A DNA stretch of 64,000 nucleotides from Synergistes jonesii (lineage in GTDB: Bacteria > Synergistota > Synergistia > Synergistales > Synergistaceae), in contig NZ_JMKI01000035.1 of the NCBI RefSeq assembly GCF_000712295.1, positions 5-64,004 of the forward strand, written 5' to 3'. A program made the translations under genes and the position numbers. Each line of letters starts with the position of its first letter. Positions within the stretch are counted from its first letter, which is position 1. Of this stretch, positions 55,933 through 64,000 are shown piece by piece. The notes beneath the pieces were generated by a model. The model was given only the letters and a program-made list of their open reading frames with translations, had not been told where the DNA came from and did not search any database.

Positions 55933-57033
55933 ATGAAGAAGGTATATGAGACAGACCTTCTGGTCATAGGCGGCGGAGCCGCAGGCCTTTGCGCGGCGGC
56001 GGAAGCCGGGGGAGCCGGCGCCAAGGTGACCGTTATAGAAAGCGACCTGCACGCCGGAGGGCAGTTAGTCAAACAGACCCACAAATTCTTCGGTTCGAAA
56101 GACGAATACGCGGGGACGCGCGGCTACAAGATAGCGGACATCCTCCTTGAGGAGATAGCTGGGCTGGGAGACAGAGTGCAAATAAGCTGCAACTCCACAG
56201 TCACCGGCTACTACCCGGAAGACGGGGTATACACCGTGATGCAGGGAGAAGAAGAGTACTACCGCATCAAGGCGAAAAAAGCGGTGATAGCGACCGGGGC
56301 GCAGGAAAGAATGATCCCCTTCACGAACAACGACCTTCCCGGCGTATACGGAGCGGGAGCGGTACAGACCCTGATGAACGTATACGGCGTAGTGCCGGGC
56401 AAAAGAGTCGTCATGGTGGGAGCGGGCAACATAGGGCTCATAGTCAGCTACCAGCTTAAGCAGGCGGGAGTGGAAGTAGCGGCGGTAGTCGAAGCCATGC
56501 CTAAAATAGGCGGCTACTGGGTACACGCGGCGAAAATCAGAAGGCTGGGCATCCCCGTACTCCTAAGACACACCGTAGTGGAGGCCATAGGAGACAAAAT
56601 ACTCGAAGGCGCCGTGATCCAGGAACTGGACGACAAATTCCAGCTCATAGGCGAGCCGGAGAAAATAGAGTGCGACATCATCTGCATGGCGGTAGGACTC
56701 ACGCCCACCACGGAACTCTTCTGGCAGGCCGGCTGCAAAATGCAATACGTTCCGCAGCTCTGCGGCTACGTCCCCTACAGAGACAAAAACATGCGCACCA
56801 GCAACCCCGACATCTGGGTGGCGGGAGACGCCTCTGGCATAGAAGAAGCCTCCGCAGCGATGGTAGAAGGCCGGGTTGCGGGGCACTCGGCGGCCAAAGC
56901 GCTGGGACTTCCGGTAGACGACGGTAAATTCGACGAATACTGGACGAGACTCCACCACCTGCGCGCCGGCGAAGTAGGAGAAAAAATCACAGCCGGCATA
57001 AACCAAGTACTCGTACAGGGATGGGAGGCGTAA
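55933..57033 (+). CDS. Amino-acid dehydrogenase FAD/NAD(P)-binding subunit
   Basis: 366 residues with two Rossmann motifs, LLVIGGGAAGLCAAAEAGGA (FAD) and VVMVGAGNIGLIVSYQLKQAG (NAD). WVAGDASGIEEASAAMVEGRVAG near the end is the usual FAD ribityl-binding motif. It corresponds to the alpha subunit of opine oxidase, HcnB and D-hydroxyproline dehydrogenases, but lacks their C-terminal BFD domain, which is encoded separately by the fourth gene. Confidence 0.88.
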   Translation: MKKVYETDLLVIGGGAAGLCAAAEAGGAGAKVTVIESDLHAGGQLVKQTHKFFGSKDEYAGTRGYKIADILLEEIAGLGDRVQISCNSTVTGYYPEDGVYTVMQGEEEYYRIKAKKAVIATGAQERMIPFTNNDLPGVYGAGAVQTLMNVYGVVPGKRVVMVGAGNIGLIVSYQLKQAGVEVAAVVEAMPKIGGYWVHAAKIRRLGIPVLLRHTVVEAIGDKILEGAVIQELDDKFQLIGEPEKIECDIICMAVGLTPTTELFWQAGCKMQYVPQLCGYVPYRDKNMRTSNPDIWVAGDASGIEEASAAMVEGRVAGHSAAKALGLPVDDGKFDEYWTRLHHLRAGEVGEKITAGINQVLVQGWEA

Positions 57034-57035
57034 CA

Positions 57036-57542
57036 ATGAGCTGCGACAAAGACAAACTCTTCAACAGCGGAGTGCTGGTAGAACACGTGGAAGGAGCGCT
57101 GCTGCCGCCGCAAGAGAAATGGGAAGCCAAAAAAGGCGGTTACGTGGTGATAGAATGCCCCAAGCGCATCCCCTGCAACCCCTGCCATACCAGCTGCCCC
57201 ACCGGGGCCGTGCTGCCCTTCGAAGACATAAACGACACGCCGAAAATAGACTACGACAAATGCACCGGCTGCGGCATCTGCGTATCGCGCTGCCCGGGTC
57301 TTGCGTGCTTCGTGATAGACCTTACGGTGGGAAAAGGGCAGGCTCTCATCAAACTACCGTACGAAATGCTGCCGCTGCCGTCAAAAGGACAGAAAGTCAA
57401 ATGCCTGAACAGAGTCGGCGAAGAAGTGGCGGAGGGGGAAATCACATCTGTGACGGAGCCTTCGAAAGACAAGACCTACGTTCTGAGCGTGCTCATCCCC
57501 AAAGATAAAGCGGACGACATCCGCGCCGTGAAGGTCCAGTAA
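57036..57542 (+). CDS. Amino-acid dehydrogenase ferredoxin-type subunit
   Basis: 168 residues with two Cys sets for [4Fe-4S] clusters: CNPCHTSCPTG and CTGCGICVSRCPGLAC. A C-terminal beta-rich part (about 95-168) is not recognised. GGGAGG lies upstream of the ATG at 57036, just after the previous stop. It probably passes electrons from the flavins to an external carrier. This subunit is not present in aerobic opine or HCN systems and may adapt the complex to an anaerobe. Confidence 0.85.
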   Translation: MSCDKDKLFNSGVLVEHVEGALLPPQEKWEAKKGGYVVIECPKRIPCNPCHTSCPTGAVLPFEDINDTPKIDYDKCTGCGICVSRCPGLACFVIDLTVGKGQALIKLPYEMLPLPSKGQKVKCLNRVGEEVAEGEITSVTEPSKDKTYVLSVLIPKDKADDIRAVKVQ

Positions 57543-57791
57543 AGGTGGTGTGCTGAAATGGCGAAAGCAAACGTGATATGCCGCTGCGAAGAAATAGAGA
57601 TAGACACTATACGCGAGTGGATAGCGCGCGGCTATGACACATTCGACGAGCTCAAGAGAGAGCTTCGCGTCGGCATGGGCCCCTGTCAGGGACGCGGCTG
57701 CCGCGACATCATACTGCGCGAGATAGCTAAGGCGACCGGCAAACCCGTCGCCGAACTGTCCCCTGGGACGATGAGACCACCAGTTAAACCA
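57542..57791 (+). repeat. 250-base perfect repeat (copy 2)
   Basis: Identical to 43435-43684. This copy is in its complete operon context and is therefore probably the source. Confidence 0.9.
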
Positions 57792-57842
57792 ATAAAAATA
57801 AGCCTCCTCGCCGAGGACTTCAGGGAAGGTGAGCACAGATGA
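57558..57842 (+). CDS. Amino-acid dehydrogenase BFD-type (2Fe-2S) subunit
   Basis: 94 residues. The ligands are in CRCEEIEIDT and GPCQGRGCRD, the Fer2_BFD arrangement. In opine oxidase and similar enzymes this domain is fused to the FAD/NAD subunit; here it is free. The last codons overlap the start of the DAO-type gene by 4 bases (ATGA), indicating coupled translation. Confidence 0.88.
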   Translation: MAKANVICRCEEIEIDTIREWIARGYDTFDELKRELRVGMGPCQGRGCRDIILREIAKATGKPVAELSPGTMRPPVKPIKISLLAEDFREGEHR

Positions 57843-58987
57843 TAGATATCCCGAAAACAGCCGACATAGTGATAATAGGAGGAGGCGGCGTCGGCACCGC
57901 TACGGCCTATTATCTTGCAAAATCAGGAAGAAAAAACGTCGTCGTCCTCGAAAAGAACACGGTGTGCTCAGGCTCGACGGGACGCTGCGGCGCGGGCATC
58001 CGCGCGCAGTGGGGGCTTGAACTCAACTGCCGCATGGCGCTCGCCTGCCTAGACACCTTCGAACATCTGGACGAAGAGCTCGGCCTGCCTACCGGACTCA
58101 ATCAGGGCGGCTACCTGCTCGTAGCCTATAAAGAAAAGGAATGGGCCCAATTCCAGAAGAACGTCGAGCTTCAGCACAGCCTCGGCATCATGTCGGAAGC
58201 TTTCACGGACGTCAAGCGCGCCCAGGAGATATGCCCCGGCGTGGCTGTCGACGACGCGATCGGCTTCACGTTCTATCAGAGGGACGGACACGCCGACCCC
58301 TTCCTGACGACCTTTGCCTTCCAGGAGGCGGCGAAGCGCTACGGCGCCACTTTCTGCAAATTCACCGAGGTCGTCGGCCTCAAGGCGACGAAGGGTGGGA
58401 TGCTCGTCGAGACGAACCGCGGCAATATCGACTGCAAAGATGTCATAAACTGCGCGGGCTCCTGGGCGCAGGACGTCGCCGCGTTGGCCGGCGTCAAGCT
58501 GCCGAACTGGGCCGAGCGCCATCAGATAATCATAACGGAGCCGGTGGACCCGGGCGTCTGCCCTCCGATGCTGATGAGCTTCAGCGGCAACTACTACATC
58601 CAGCAGCGTCCGCACGGCTCTATCATCGCGGGCGAAAGCCCTTCGAGCGACATCAGGCTCGGCTACACGTCGAACGTCAATTCGATCGCGAGCATCGCGC
58701 GCACGGTGCTCAAGCTGCTGCCGCGCGCGAAGAACATCCGCGTCGTGCGTCAGTGGGCCGGACACTACGACATGACGCCGGATTCAGCGCCTATTCTCGG
58801 CGAGACGGACGTCAAGCACTTTTGGCACGCGACGGGCTTCTCCGGGCACGGCTTCATGCTCGCGCCGGTGGCCGGCCAGATCATGACAGCCCTGCTCAAC
58901 GGAGACAAGCCGCCGTTCGACCCGACTATCATGGACTACAAAAGGTTCGAGCGCGGCGAAAAGATCGTGGAGCCGAACGTCGTCTGA
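57839..58987 (+). CDS. Amino-acid dehydrogenase catalytic FAD subunit (DAO family)
   Basis: 382 residues, the substrate-oxidising beta subunit of a proline/hydroxyproline/opine-type dehydrogenase. FAD-binding motif ADIVIIGGGGVGTATAYYLA. GSTGRCGAGIRAQWG is typical of the sarcosine oxidase/proline dehydrogenase group. The C-terminal end has WAGHYDMTPDSAPILGE and TGFSGHGFMLAPVAGQ. The exact substrate cannot be read; a D-amino acid or cyclic imino acid is likely given the DauR-type regulator. Last gene, with a strong terminator after it. Confidence 0.9.
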   Translation: MIDIPKTADIVIIGGGGVGTATAYYLAKSGRKNVVVLEKNTVCSGSTGRCGAGIRAQWGLELNCRMALACLDTFEHLDEELGLPTGLNQGGYLLVAYKEKEWAQFQKNVELQHSLGIMSEAFTDVKRAQEICPGVAVDDAIGFTFYQRDGHADPFLTTFAFQEAAKRYGATFCKFTEVVGLKATKGGMLVETNRGNIDCKDVINCAGSWAQDVAALAGVKLPNWAERHQIIITEPVDPGVCPPMLMSFSGNYYIQQRPHGSIIAGESPSSDIRLGYTSNVNSIASIARTVLKLLPRAKNIRVVRQWAGHYDMTPDSAPILGETDVKHFWHATGFSGHGFMLAPVAGQIMTALLNGDKPPFDPTIMDYKRFERGEKIVEPNVV

Positions 58988-59342: not shown

Positions 59343-60188
59343 TCAATTATACAAGGAGCGTCCGTCAAGTATGTATTTTACAGCGTGTTCTCTGAGGTCT
59401 TTAGAATATAATGTCATGAATATAGGATACACCATCTCGTTACTCTTGGATAGTTGATGGATTATATCCTTTACACCGCGGTTTTTGAGGCTGTTCATGA
59501 CGGAGAGCCAGTATTTCGAGCTCTCATTTTCCCCGATTTCTACTGTCAGGACTTCCTTGTGCCCTTCGGCGTTTATGCCGAGGATGACATACGCCGCAAG
59601 CTTTTTGATTATTCCGCTGTCTCGTACCGAATAGTGTATGGCGTCTATGTACAGCACCGGCCAGACTTCAGACAGTGACCGGTTCTGCCAGTCCTCTATC
59701 TCCGGCAGTATCTTGTCCGTGACGTTCGATATGAAGCCTTCTGAGGCCTCAAAACCATATACATCCATGAGCATGGCTGATATCTGCCTTGTCGTCATGC
59801 CATTTATATACATGGAGATTATCTTTCGATCTATCTCCGATATATCTTTCTGGCGTTTCTTGATAACTTTAGGCTCAAACGTGGAAGCCCTGTCCTGGGG
59901 AACTGATATCTTCATTGTTTCCAGGCTCGAGTTGACTGTCTTTTCCTTGTAGCCGTTCCGGCAGTAGTCCGAGTCCAAGCGTTCTGATTTCTCATAGCCA
60001 AGGTGGTCGTCCATCTCCGCTTCCATCATCTGCTTGATGGTACCGCCGAGCAGGTTCTTCAAGGCATCATGAATGTCCTCGGCAGTTTCGATGACGTACT
60101 ACTGAAGAAGGCGCCTGATTATTTCTTCCTTGCCTTCCGTCATGACAACCCTGTGGACCGATTGTTTCTCTTTCCTCGTCTTAGCCAT
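59343..60188 (-). pseudogene. IS256 transposase pseudogene fused to IS630 N-terminus
   Basis: From the ATG at 60188 the frame reads a normal IS256 N-terminus, interrupted by an in-frame TAG in place of a Glu codon (about 60101-60103), then a long intact part with the first catalytic Asp (VLYIDAIHYSV). After VKDI, at about 59455, IS256 homology stops and the frame continues into PIFMTLYSKDLREHAVKYI, the start of an IS630 transposase. Thus an IS630 landed in the IS256, and most of its own inside is gone. Non-functional. Confidence 0.85.
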
Positions 60189-60638: not shown

Positions 60639-60674
60639 TTGACTCAAATAGCACGATTGTATATAATCGACAAT
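60639..60674 (+). promoter_or_regulatory. Promoter and operator of the GntR-OYE cluster
   Basis: TTGACT (60639-60644) and a consensus TATAAT (60662-60667) are exactly 17 bases apart. An inverted repeat ATTGT-N9-ACAAT (60656-60674) straddles the -10, fitting autorepression. The 10-mer AATCGACAAT in it recurs at 62804-62813 before the flavoprotein gene. Confidence 0.78.
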
Positions 60675-60703
60675 AAACAAAGATTCGGAGGGAGAAATCA
60701 ATA

Positions 60704-61384
60704 ATGCTTGCACATGAGTCTACGCATGAGATACAGAAAAGCGGCTTTCAACATAAGAGCCTGGTGGAAAATATCGTAGAGGAGATCGAGTCTAAGATCA
60801 TCAGCGGCGAGTTCAAGCCTGGTATGCGTTTGATCGAACAAAACATGTGCGAACAGATGAATGTCAGCCGCTCCCCATTGAGAGAGGCTTTTCGTATTCT
60901 GGAAAATATAGGCTATCTTGTGAGCAACGCAAGAAAAGGTGTGTTCGTGAGCGAGCTGACATATAAAGACGCCGTAGATGTGTATACGATAAGAGCGAAT
61001 CTTGAAAGCCTGGCGATATACCTTGCAATTAAAAATGATGACGGAACATTAACCGACCGCCTAACCAGCATTAACAAACAGATGCTCGTTTACGCTAATA
61101 GCGGTGACACGTGGAACTATGCAAAGTATAACAGCAAATTTCACGAGACGCTGATAAAGGCATGCAACAATCAGAGGCTTATCAACATGCTGGATATTTT
61201 CAGCAAGCAGACGAAGCGCTACCGGACTGGAGTAATGCTTTCTACGGGAAAGATGCAGGAATCGATAAAAAAGCATGAAGAGCTAATCGAATCCATACGA
61301 AACGGTAATGCAGAAAAGGCTGAAAAAATACGGAAGAAATCTATACTTGCGAATTTGAAGTACCTGCCAAAGTTGTTTTCTTAA
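60704..61384 (+). CDS. GntR-family regulator with FCD domain
   Basis: 226 residues. The N-terminal winged helix is typical GntR (ISGEFKPGMRLIEQNMCEQMN, VSRSPLREAFRILENIGYL). The C-terminal FCD domain (about 85-220) has KYNSKFHETLIKACNNQRL and HEELIESIRNGN, which supply the usual metal/ligand residues. It probably senses the substrate of the genes downstream, which start 28 bases later. GGAGGG precedes the ATG. Confidence 0.9.
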   Translation: MLAHESTHEIQKSGFQHKSLVENIVEEIESKIISGEFKPGMRLIEQNMCEQMNVSRSPLREAFRILENIGYLVSNARKGVFVSELTYKDAVDVYTIRANLESLAIYLAIKNDDGTLTDRLTSINKQMLVYANSGDTWNYAKYNSKFHETLIKACNNQRLINMLDIFSKQTKRYRTGVMLSTGKMQESIKKHEELIESIRNGNAEKAEKIRKKSILANLKYLPKLFS

Positions 61385-61412
61385 CATGGCCTATCAAAAG
61401 GGAGGATATTGA

Positions 61413-62132
61413 ATGAAGATAAACGAAGAATTGTGCATAGGTTGTAAGCAGTGCGTTCCTTACTGTCCGGTTGGCTGCATAGCTACTAAAGGAGGCAAGG
61501 TGTATATCAATCACGACGAATGCGTTGACTGTGGCGTCTGCAAAAGGGCAAACGTCTGCCCGAAAGACGCTATTTACATGCCAGCTGAATGTTATGAGTA
61601 TCCGCGCGCGATCCGCATGCAGTTCAGTGACCCAGGCATACAGCACCCTAACCTAAGAGCGTGGGGGCGTGGGACGGAAGAGGCTAAAACAAACGATGTC
61701 ACTGCAAAGTTTAAAAGGGGTGAGTACGGCCTGCTCCTTGAATTTGGACGTCCCGGAACCGGCACTAGGCTATCGGAGATAGAAAAGGTGACTCTGGCAA
61801 TGCGCGGTATGGGGATCCCGATAATCAAGGACAACCCGCTTTACGGCCTCCTTGAGCCAGATATTTCAGGTAAATTCAAGCCCGAATATGTCAATGAAAA
61901 GGTGCTCTCGGCAATACTTGAGCTTGTGATTACAGAAGATAAGCTAGAAGAGACGCTAAACAAGCTATTTCCAATATTTAAATCGCTAAATACTGTCGTT
62001 TCCGTGGGCCTCGTAAGCCGCTTCGACGACAACGCGGAACTTCCCGTAGTAAAAAAGTTGAAAAAACTTGGAATAGAGGTCAGGCCTAATGCGAAGATCA
62101 ACGTTGGACTGGGCCGGCCGCTAATCGACTAG
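61413..62132 (+). CDS. 4Fe-4S ferredoxin domain fused to an unrecognised domain
   Basis: 239 residues. Two [4Fe-4S] motifs at the N-terminus: CIGCKQCVPYCPVGC (about 8-22) and CVDCGVCKRANVCP (about 37-50, with an insert before the last Cys). From about 90 on there is a domain of about 150 residues (FGRPGTGTRLSEIEKVTLAM, VVSVGLVSRFDDNAELPVV) that I do not recognise. Its alternation of strands and helices suggests a ferredoxin-like or ACT-like fold. Probably an electron carrier specialised for this cluster. Confidence 0.75.
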   Translation: MKINEELCIGCKQCVPYCPVGCIATKGGKVYINHDECVDCGVCKRANVCPKDAIYMPAECYEYPRAIRMQFSDPGIQHPNLRAWGRGTEEAKTNDVTAKFKRGEYGLLLEFGRPGTGTRLSEIEKVTLAMRGMGIPIIKDNPLYGLLEPDISGKFKPEYVNEKVLSAILELVITEDKLEETLNKLFPIFKSLNTVVSVGLVSRFDDNAELPVVKKLKKLGIEVRPNAKINVGLGRPLID

Positions 62133-62142
62133 GAGGTTTTTC

Positions 62143-62787
62143 ATGAGTCATTCGCTGCATCGTTATGGAACTGTTGAAAACCTGAAGAATGATTTTTGTA
62201 TATATACAAGGGCCGCAAAGGGGATAAACCGGGATAACTGTGGAGATAAGCTCCGCGAGACACTTAATATCTACCTTTCAGAAAAGGTCGTCAATTTCGG
62301 CTCCAGCCATGCGGGCAAAAGCTATTTGAATGGCCTTGACCCTGAAGAATATGCAAAGACACTGGATAATTCCTACGGCATCATCGCGACATTTTCTGAC
62401 CGTGAAGCCGTAAAGGGTGTGCTGATGAAGGCGAAAGCTGCCAAATTGGGCATCTCTACAGTAGTGAGCGGCCTGATCGACGAAGTCGTGCAAATTGCCC
62501 GCGAATGTGGATTAAAACCTCACACCGCGCTTCTGTCGCTGGGCGTTTATGGCGACACGTCGCTTCTGCCTAGCGGGGAGGTTCTTCAGTATACCACAAT
62601 GTGTGGACACTCTTTGGTTTCACAGCATCTTGTGAAGGACGTAACCGAAAAGGTCAAAAAGGGAATAATGACTCCCGAAGACGCGGCCCTGATCCTGGCA
62701 AAGCCCTGCACCTGCGGCATATTCAACACGGACCGCTGCGCGCAGCTTATGAAAGAACGTCTTGCCGCGGACAGTAAAAATTTATAA
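62143..62787 (+). CDS. Unrecognised protein of the GntR-OYE cluster
   Basis: 214 residues, 10 bases after the ferredoxin-fusion gene with a good ribosome binding site (GGAGG). Features: VVNFGSSHAGKSYLNGLDPEEY, a central alpha/beta part (YGIIATFSDREAVKGVLMKA, LGISTVVSGLIDEV), several Cys (CGLKPH, MCGHS, KPCTCGIFNTDRCAQLM). The C-terminal CTCG...C set could bind metal or an Fe-S cluster. No family is recognised. Co-location suggests a shared reaction with the flavoprotein downstream, for example as a second subunit. Confidence 0.7.
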   Translation: MSHSLHRYGTVENLKNDFCIYTRAAKGINRDNCGDKLRETLNIYLSEKVVNFGSSHAGKSYLNGLDPEEYAKTLDNSYGIIATFSDREAVKGVLMKAKAAKLGISTVVSGLIDEVVQIARECGLKPHTALLSLGVYGDTSLLPSGEVLQYTTMCGHSLVSQHLVKDVTEKVKKGIMTPEDAALILAKPCTCGIFNTDRCAQLMKERLAADSKNL

Positions 62788-62796
62788 TTTAGCTTT

Positions 62797-62819
62797 TGCA
62801 TACAATCGACAATTATGCA
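62797..62819 (+). promoter_or_regulatory. Operator-like palindrome before the flavoprotein gene
   Basis: TGCATA (62797-62802) and TATGCA (62814-62819) flank CAATCGACAAT. The 10-mer AATCGACAAT is the same as in the GntR promoter (60665-60674), suggesting a second binding site of the regulator. Confidence 0.5.
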
Positions 62820-62831
62820 ATTGGGGGTAAT

Positions 62832-64000
62832 ATGATGAAAGATTGTGCTCTGCTCACACCGGCGAAGATCGGCCCGGTAGAAATAAAAAATCGCGTGATC
62901 GTATCGTCGATGTGCCTTTATTATTCAAACAAAAACGGCGATGTCACAGATAAAATGATCGCGTTTTTTAAAAACAGGGCAGAGGCGGGGATCGGTGCGT
63001 TTATAATTCCCGCGAATCCGCACGGCGCGAATAAGAGAGCGCGGGGATCGCTATCGGACGATTCACGGATCGCCCAGTGGGAACCGCTGCTTAACGTTAT
63101 ACATGACGCTGGTGCGAAAGTTTTTAATCAGATTCACCCCTCCGGGACTCAATTTGGCCGCGCTGGGTTTGATGAGTCCCCCTTCGAGCTTTCCACCGAA
63201 GGTATACGTAAGATGATCGAATCTTATGCTCAGGGGGCACTTCGCGCAAAAAAAGCCGGTTTTGACGGGGTCGAGATACATGGGGCCCATGGGCATGAGG
63301 TGGCTCTTCTTCTTTCCGAACTGCTCAATACCCGTAAAGACCAATATGGCGGGAATCTGGAAAACTGTGCGCGTAACGTTACAGAGATGATTTCGCGTAT
63401 CAAAGAGCTTTGCGGAGGAGATTTTCCCGTCATTTTAAGGATCAGCGGCGAGGAAAGAATACCGGGAGGCCGCACCATTGAAAAATCGTCGGAGATATGC
63501 TGTCTGGCGGAGGCGGCGGGCGCCGACGCCATACACGTTTCCGTAGGAATGCCCGCCAGCGAGGAATGGGAATGCCCTCCCTCCGAGATACAGGAAGGGC
63601 ACCTGGGTTACATGGGTAAATACCTTAAGGAAAGGCTTAAAGTACCCGTGATTGTTGTCGGCCGTATCGTTGATTGGAACGTCGCTAATAAAATGGTCGA
63701 AGAGGCGGAGGCGGATTTCTGCGCGATTGCGCGAACTGTCCTCGCCGATGGAAACTGGATGCGCGCGGTAGGCAACGACGATTATCCGATACGCCATTGC
63801 ATCGCCTGCAATCAGGGGTGCCGCACCCGCAGAGAGCAGAACAAGACGCAGTGCGAGTGTTTGCAGAATCCCCTTACAAGCCGAGAGGAGCTCTTTGACC
63901 TTAACGAGCAGGACGCGGCCGGTAAAAAGGTGTGCGTGATCGGGGCCGGGCTTTCCGGGTTGGAGGCGGCAAATGTCTTTGCCCACAGAGGAGCAGCAGT
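62832..64000 (+). CDS. Old Yellow Enzyme-type NADH:flavin oxidoreductase (cut by window end)
   Basis: The open frame runs from ATGATG at 62832 (GGGGGT upstream) to the window edge, 389 codons. The FMN-binding TIM barrel has LTPAKIGPVEIKNRVIVSSM at the start, and EIHGAHGHEVALLLSELLNTRKDQYGG as the usual active-site stretch. The [4Fe-4S] Cys pattern of 2,4-dienoyl-CoA reductase-type enzymes is HCIACNQGC with a later Cys in TQCECLQNP. A second Rossmann motif (KVCVIGAGLSGLEAA) begins at about 368, so the complete protein should be of about 640-680 residues. It reduces an activated C=C bond. The substrate is unknown. Confidence 0.9.
   Translation, partial: MMKDCALLTPAKIGPVEIKNRVIVSSMCLYYSNKNGDVTDKMIAFFKNRAEAGIGAFIIPANPHGANKRARGSLSDDSRIAQWEPLLNVIHDAGAKVFNQIHPSGTQFGRAGFDESPFELSTEGIRKMIESYAQGALRAKKAGFDGVEIHGAHGHEVALLLSELLNTRKDQYGGNLENCARNVTEMISRIKELCGGDFPVILRISGEERIPGGRTIEKSSEICCLAEAAGADAIHVSVGMPASEEWECPPSEIQEGHLGYMGKYLKERLKVPVIVVGRIVDWNVANKMVEEAEADFCAIARTVLADGNWMRAVGNDDYPIRHCIACNQGCRTRREQNKTQCECLQNPLTSREELFDLNEQDAAGKKVCVIGAGLSGLEAANVFAHRGAA

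Follow-up and report, generated by a model that had tools for sequence, protein, structure and literature searches.

The 64,000-nt stretch of Synergistes jonesii DNA considered here (contig NZ_JMKI01000035.1, positions 5 to 64,004; hereafter the window) forms one end of a 72-kb contig and stops within an operon that begins with genes for a GntR-family regulator, a ferredoxin-containing protein (Fd), a protein without a family name (P3) and an Old Yellow Enzyme (OYE). Our main finding is that the conserved unit in this operon is Fd plus P3, not Fd plus OYE. We propose, with a probability of roughly 45%, that Fd and P3 form an uncharacterized two-subunit Fe-S oxidoreductase acting on imported carboxylates, a reusable cassette that in S. 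jonesii would be part of a GntR-controlled acid operon. A preliminary description of this DNA had suggested a ferredoxin reserved for the OYE or joined with it in an electron-bifurcating complex; this suggestion was not supported, because Fd occurs nearly always with P3 and seldom with OYE. The interest of the locus lies in the Fd-P3 pair more than in an OYE-ferredoxin complex.

An Fd-seeded scan of 84,980 species genomes returned at least 562 confirmed stretches, and the locus and partner counts given here, including those for tripartite tricarboxylate (TTT) and TRAP transporters, come from the best 80 matches of that scan, which are biased toward near relatives. P3 adjoins Fd in 77 of the 78 named loci kept, the exception being a contig that ends 71 bases after Fd (L044), and the gap between the two genes has a median of 5 bases and is within 60 bases in 96 of 99 cases. 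Of 185 Synergistota genomes, 19 carry P3, and the identical 19 carry Fd (E up to 1e-40), with the two genes adjacent in almost all of them (G468 has them on different short contigs). Eight genomes among 60 relatives carry P3, and each P3 in the stretches examined is next to Fd. P3 is rare elsewhere (4 of 341 genomes from the class to which a clostridial carrier belongs and 7 of 251 from the phylum of a carrier in the Dehalococcoidia, each carrier counted in), and a search for plasmid homologs of P3 found none. Distances between Fd proteins correlate with those between P3 proteins (r = 0.83 over 93 pairs; none of 2000 shuffles gave a value as high), and over the 42 pairs for which both could be compared, the correlation was 0.86 for Fd and P3 versus 0.58 for Fd and the transporter protein TctA. 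The Fd tree agrees better with the P3 tree than either does with the TctA tree. Among the matches listed, Fd is found in Synergistota, Clostridia and other Bacillota, deltaproteobacterial groups, Chloroflexi, SAR324, a Terriglobia metagenome-assembled genome, a Bathyarchaeote and a Desulfurococcales archaeon; we take the lineages carrying Fd and P3 to be mainly anaerobic.

A survey of neighboring genes covered 95 gene runs around Fd, eight repeat loci having been dropped (L020, L021, L022, L024, L148, L152, L156 and L157). P3 is present in 88 of these runs, a number that understates the pairing because greedy gene choice misses P3 in some of them. The runs also contain genes encoding TctC (36 runs), TctA (35), GntR (25), a CooF-like polyferredoxin (13), AFOR (10), a CO dehydrogenase (CODH)-like protein (9), a pyridine-nucleotide reductase (8), OYE (8) and LeuC (7), and fewer contain hydroxyacid dehydrogenases, DHDPS-type aldolases, IlvD, PdxA or glycolate-oxidase-like genes. 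Some transporter gene is present in 46 of the 95, and partners elsewhere include TTT and TRAP transporters. Certain runs consist of only Fd, P3 and a TTT transporter (e.g., L023, L037, L064, L068 and L103), while two loci (L046 and L062) each contain two or three paralogous Fd-P3 pairs.

Co-occurrence of all four genes, the check that the preliminary description had called for, was seen in part. Of the 19 Synergistota genomes with P3, 9 have the order GntR-Fd-P3-OYE (G000, G040, G027, G012, G504, G412, G467, G472 and G477; the contig stops inside OYE or LeuC in three of these, and in a further genome, G469, it stops right after P3), whereas elsewhere Fd and P3 occur mostly without OYE. Fd could nonetheless be the dedicated electron donor of OYE, possibly within an enoate reductase complex that bifurcates electrons and includes P3 as an extra subunit: the genes share an operon, their spacing is tight (28, 10 and 44 bases for GntR-Fd, Fd-P3 and P3-OYE, bearing out the initial report of four same-strand genes with short gaps), the arrangement recurs in those nine Synergistota, OYE is nearby in two Clostridia (L032 and L033), and the 4Fe-4S motif of OYE could accept electrons from ferredoxin. 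We nevertheless consider such a complex very unlikely, given that most Fd-P3 loci lack OYE and that the S. jonesii OYE retains an FAD and NAD(P)H part of its own. Moreover, in the two Clostridia a TctC-TctB-TctA-OYE-LeuC-LeuD set, whose LeuCD is of a different subtype, runs in the direction opposite to the adjacent Fd-P3 pair, such that OYE is on the opposite strand and apart from Fd and P3.

As first described, Fd contains two 4Fe-4S motifs and ~150 residues that match no family, and P3 is an unrecognized protein with a Cys-rich end (C189-x-C191, with C154 further upstream). In an alignment of 91 Fd proteins (A4; 90 of 100 references plus the window Fd), all eight cluster Cys are kept in nearly all members, and the GRG-(TEE)-K motif, GRP, E170, K228 and G232 are invariant. 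In the corresponding alignment of 97 P3 proteins (A3; 96 of the 100 usable references plus the window P3, with L050:19769, L061:6043, L085 and L100:8259 dropped for odd length or doubtful frame), C154, G155, H156, R7, G137 and C189 are present in 97 of 97, C191 in 96 (the remaining one reads X), H3 in 96, H6 in 95 and H127 in 94, and P3 thus has three conserved Cys. No convincing Pfam match to the Fd C-terminal part was found among the matches listed for the 91 members, and no convincing Pfam or NCBIfam match among those listed for the 97 P3 sequences; the complete lists for the two window proteins gave the same result, and sequence searches of solved structures returned no meaningful match to the Fd tail or to P3. 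At two loci of one Chloroflexi genome (L160:3742-4980, minus strand, and L085/L161), P3 is C-terminally fused to a Fer4_11 polyferredoxin (~412 aa), which favors a role of P3 in electron transfer, as acceptor or donor.

Remote homology searches and structure prediction for the Fd tail and P3, as had been recommended, brought out no well-studied family. The predicted models are confident (pLDDT 93.5 for P3 and 90.1 for Fd), and both hold ferredoxin-like alpha/beta parts, with nothing more specific found in the PDB. Only the N-terminal ferredoxin of the Fd model matched well, and the P3 model returned only common ferredoxin-like matches (Foldseek E 0.036 at best; best Z 7.1 over 72 residues, rmsd 2.1). 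Matches of the two models to aspartokinase ACT, PII-like and designed ferredoxin folds do not rise above what common arrangements give. Ferredoxin-like and PII-like folds among these weak matches, together with close linkage to transporters and GntR, might indicate that the pair senses redox state or a ligand and thereby controls transport or operon transcription. This role appears highly improbable to us, however, as ferredoxin-like folds are widespread, matches of this quality (Z under 8) are no better than chance, no DNA-binding or signaling domain was found in the family searches with Fd and P3, and the conserved Cys and His residues look catalytic or metal-binding.

The same residues bear on another possibility, that P3 catalyzes a non-redox reaction, as a lyase, isomerase or racemase, with zinc or Fe-S at its metal site serving as a Lewis acid, and that Fd has only a structural or protective role. 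Three Cys plus His, a three-ligand count like that of aconitase, and the hydroxy-acid enzymes among the partners are in keeping with such an enzyme, but retention of the full set of cluster Cys in nearly all Fd members and the fusion, in one lineage, of P3 with another electron carrier make it quite doubtful.

Other candidate relationships were rejected. hhalign gave a probability of 2% for the Fd C-terminal domain and P3 as duplicates, and of 0.5% for the 97 P3 proteins against 11 archaeal members of methanogenesis marker 8 (TIGR03275/DUF2099), both models of which single P3 members match weakly; in the marker 8 follow-up, no P3 was found in the 33 genomes searched behind P3 loci. An apparent Fd-P3 fusion of 490 aa (L060) was dropped, its Fd end reading as a shifted frame.

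Sequence past base 64,000 was read from the same contig (L006 coordinates). The full operon, all on one strand, has the order GntR(FCD)-Fd-P3-OYE-LeuC-LeuD-TctC-TctB-TctA-AbrB, with LeuC of 406 aa, LeuD of 162, TctC of 319, TctB of 175, TctA of 500 and an AbrB-type membrane protein of 354. CoA-transferases or carriers had been named as examples of partner genes to look for beyond the end of the window, and what is present there is a carrier, the TTT transporter, and an aconitase-family dehydratase, but no CoA-transferases. The transporter was assigned from matches of TctC to PF03401 and of TctA to PF01970, with TctB placed by position and similarity to cluster neighbors.

The part of OYE inside the window matches Oxidored_FMN (PF00724, E 6.2e-51). 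The full protein and its cluster orthologs keep the 4Fe-4S motif (C-x2-C-x3-C...C), GxGxxG motifs and a nucleotide-binding part for FAD and NAD(P)H at the C-terminal end, and OYE could thus take electrons from NAD(P)H as its relatives do. It shares the TIM barrel, the 4Fe-4S motif and the FAD/NAD(P)H domain with the 2-enoate reductase/BaiCD/bilirubin reductase branch, but its score against its best NCBIfam match, BaiCD, is far under the equivalog cut-off (355.1 vs 825 bits, with the profile covered from 4 to 640 of 642). All cluster orthologs covering the position also have a His in the HGxH-E motif where the other members compared have Tyr or Phe, presumably the position of the catalytic Tyr of dienoyl-CoA reductase. 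LeuC matches Aconitase (PF00330) and scores over the NCBIfam family cut-offs PRK00402 and hacA_fam, and LeuD, a separate subunit, matches Aconitase_C (PF00694) and scores over the LeuD/DmdB subfamily cut-off. The two share the three cluster Cys with aconitase and with the 3-isopropylmalate, homoaconitate and dimethylmalate dehydratases (LeuCD, DmdAB), and the GSSRE motif is present, but neither reaches an NCBIfam equivalog cut-off. The canonical aconitase-family motif is GSCTNGR; LeuC (L006:6739-7959) and its Synergistota orthologs read SC[AST]G[AG]L, in contrast to the GCTNGR of two copies from Clostridia, hinting at an unusual substrate.

From what is known of these families, the operon would serve the GntR-controlled catabolism of an imported hydroxy- or unsaturated di- or tricarboxylic acid: TctABC would import the acid, LeuCD would interconvert a 2-hydroxyacid and an enoate, and OYE would saturate the enoate using NAD(P)H. 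Judging from LeuCD and TctABC, our best guess for the substrate is a 2-hydroxy di- or tricarboxylate. Fd and P3 would work apart from OYE, with the Fd subunit handing electrons to P3, in which C154, C189 and C191 may hold a metal center and the invariant His residues may take acid-base roles. The center would most likely be a [4Fe-4S] cluster whose one free iron binds the carboxylate substrate. Anaerobes would attach this cassette to operons for different organic acids. The putative oxidoreductase with an open Fe-S cluster on P3 is less well supported than the transport, LeuCD and OYE steps, and several observations weigh against it: the three Cys and His of P3 could bind zinc; the structure searches gave common ferredoxin-like matches that are silent on catalysis; half of the gene runs are without a recognized transporter, a count limited by contig ends and unnamed genes; and the partner enzymes are so varied that one shared reaction is hard to name.

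Many of those partners carry Fe-S or other metal centers (LeuC, IlvD/Edd, AFOR, CODH-like), as would be expected if Fd and P3 were no catabolic enzyme and instead accessory proteins for the repair, activation or reduction of metal centers in LeuCD, IlvD, AFOR or the CODH-like protein, and the paralogous pairs found two or three to a locus fit target-specific helpers. We judge an accessory function unlikely, given that several runs hold just Fd, P3 and a TTT transporter and thus contain no metalloenzyme for the pair to serve. The undescribed reductive pathway envisaged at the outset survives in altered form: a regulated, conserved cluster with two families unnamed in the searched libraries plausibly constitutes an undescribed redox pathway, but the core is not Fd and OYE.

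Table 1. Positions of the operon genes, its putative control sites and the adjacent transposase fragment in the window.
Feature	Position	Strand	Remarks
Transposase fragment, Mutator family	59343..60062	-	Upstream of operon
Sigma-70-like promoter of operon, TTGACT-17-TATAAT	60639..60667	+	11/12 match; -35, spacing and -10 kept in L019
Candidate GntR operator 1, TTGTATATAATCGACAATA region overlapping -10	60656..60674 (ends approximate)	+	Identical block in L019; core 10-mer 60665-60674
GntR-family regulator, FCD subfamily	60704..61384	+	226 aa; Pfam GntR PF00392 and FCD PF07729
Fd, N-terminal 2x[4Fe-4S] ferredoxin and unnamed C-terminal domain	61413..62132	+	239 aa; GRGTEE-KTND, GRP and KxNxGLG motifs
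P3, unnamed protein	62143..62787	+	214 aa; invariant C154-G-H156 and C189; near-invariant C191, H3, H6 and H127
Candidate operator 2 before OYE, 7-bp inverted repeat TTGCATA/TATGCAA	62796..62820	+	Encloses second 10-mer copy, 62804-62813
OYE, 2-enoate reductase/BaiCD type	62832..64000	+	ATG start; 627 aa in full; ends 715 bases past window (L006:4837-6720)

The consensus promoter and the two copies of a shared 10-mer in the preliminary description were both recovered (Table 1). The promoter is the best of 9 promoter-like matches in the region, where shuffles average 5.5 of any quality. The 10-mer AATCGACAAT, which was chosen post hoc, has 2 copies in the 64 kb (at 60665 and 62804), and two copies occurred in 0 of 100 shuffles; the exact extended operator-2 site is unique in the genome. 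Conservation in a locus from another family of the order (L019, GntR 70% identical) provides better evidence for the sites than the shuffle count does: the promoter block TTGTATATAATCGACAATA is identical there to that of the window, and TACAATCGACAWT is again present ahead of OYE, the second site reading TACAATCGACATT in that locus. The motif is missing, at up to 2 mismatches, before GntR and OYE in seven more distant GntR-bearing orthologous loci (L031, L034, L035, L148, L153, L154 and L155), the sole match being one with 2 mismatches, at chance level, ahead of the L154 OYE. Because the 10-mer is present at the promoter and before OYE, and both sites are kept in L019, the two candidate operators fit an autoregulating GntR.

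Transposase genes or fragments flank the operon, those of the Mutator type upstream and of the IS4/5 type downstream (L006:12723-14355), and neither of the 2 further genomes of this genus included in the search has P3. These features give the operon the look of a mobile island with a patchy pattern of inheritance. The Mutator-family fragment stands between the operon and an upstream sarcosine-oxidase-like gene set (55933-58987), which resembles sarcosine-oxidase/opine-oxidase-type dehydrogenases and encodes Pyr_redox_2, small 4Fe-4S, BFD-like 2Fe-2S and DAO-family proteins.

Related loci have features of their own. In two Synergistota (L153:3455-4606 and L155:4053-5282, minus strand), an additional, apparently secreted protein of ~380-410 aa is encoded between LeuD and TctC, that of L153 having no Pfam match at 1e-4. 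In a related genus (L149, L150 and L151), a second cluster, LeuC(-LeuD)-PdxA-TctC-TctA, is beside GntR-TctC-TctA-Fd-P3, with LeuC and LeuD observed in L149 and LeuC in L150. At nine loci (L067, L070, L071, L072, L079, L084, L096, L097 and L099), Fd-P3 is beside a 450-515-aa protein weakly like the CODH catalytic subunit, and such neighborhoods also carry the CooF-like polyferredoxin and the pyridine-nucleotide reductase. Locus L067 belongs to a cultured carrier, Desulfosporosinus lacus DSM 15449. A small CODH-like "mini-CooS" appears in the available portion of one report (PMC8776680).

With hundreds of bacterial and archaeal relatives, no family model and near-perfect linkage, the Fd-P3 pair marks a real blank in what is known of anaerobic metabolism. 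An Fe-S oxidoreductase acting on free organic acids, should the pair prove to be one, would account for orphan TTT/TRAP operons of anaerobes from gut, rumen and sediment and would provide a CoA-independent reductive step on hydroxy acids. Being compact and regulated, the operon in the window is an example that could be tested in one construct. A broader version, which we hold to be unlikely, is that P3 founds a new class of ferredoxin-fed enzymes with an open [4Fe-4S] cluster on C154/C189/C191, which would reduce free hydroxy-carboxylic acids (e.g., by dehydroxylation) or oxidize them in the reverse direction, needing neither coenzyme A nor radical SAM, with paralogs for different imported acids from Synergistota, Clostridia, Desulfobacterota-like bacteria and Chloroflexi to archaea.

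We found no description of the Fd-P3 pair or of the operon in the open-licence literature searched. Reductive dehydroxylases of the IspH/IspG type have an open [4Fe-4S] cluster on three Cys and receive electrons from ferredoxin; the likeness of P3 to them is one of proposed chemistry only, and the Pfam and NCBIfam lists for the window P3 contain no IspH, IspG or NadA match. The fluoroacetate reduction operon of Cloacibacillus is unrelated, being composed of different genes (GrdB-like, radical SAM) in the part of its description available (PMC10838667). According to the accessible portions of two reports, the L-aspartate semialdehyde sulfurtransferase of methanogens and Desulfovibrio consists of a COG1900/DUF39 subunit and a NIL-ferredoxin subunit, and this enzyme and the MMP16 coenzyme M synthase follow the plan proposed here for Fd and P3, that is, a small Cys-bearing catalytic protein with a dedicated ferredoxin whose extra ferredoxin-like domain accompanies a likely role in supplying electrons (PMC12068725, PMC5764234). 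P3 has no Pfam match to DUF39 and Fd none to NIL (complete lists for the window proteins, E up to 1), and, unlike in the COG1900/NIL-ferredoxin system, the gene context here is one of acid uptake and catabolism. The COG1900 and NIL-ferredoxin enzyme is the closest working analogy for Fd and P3, in which a dedicated ferredoxin would feed electrons to a small Cys-bearing partner.

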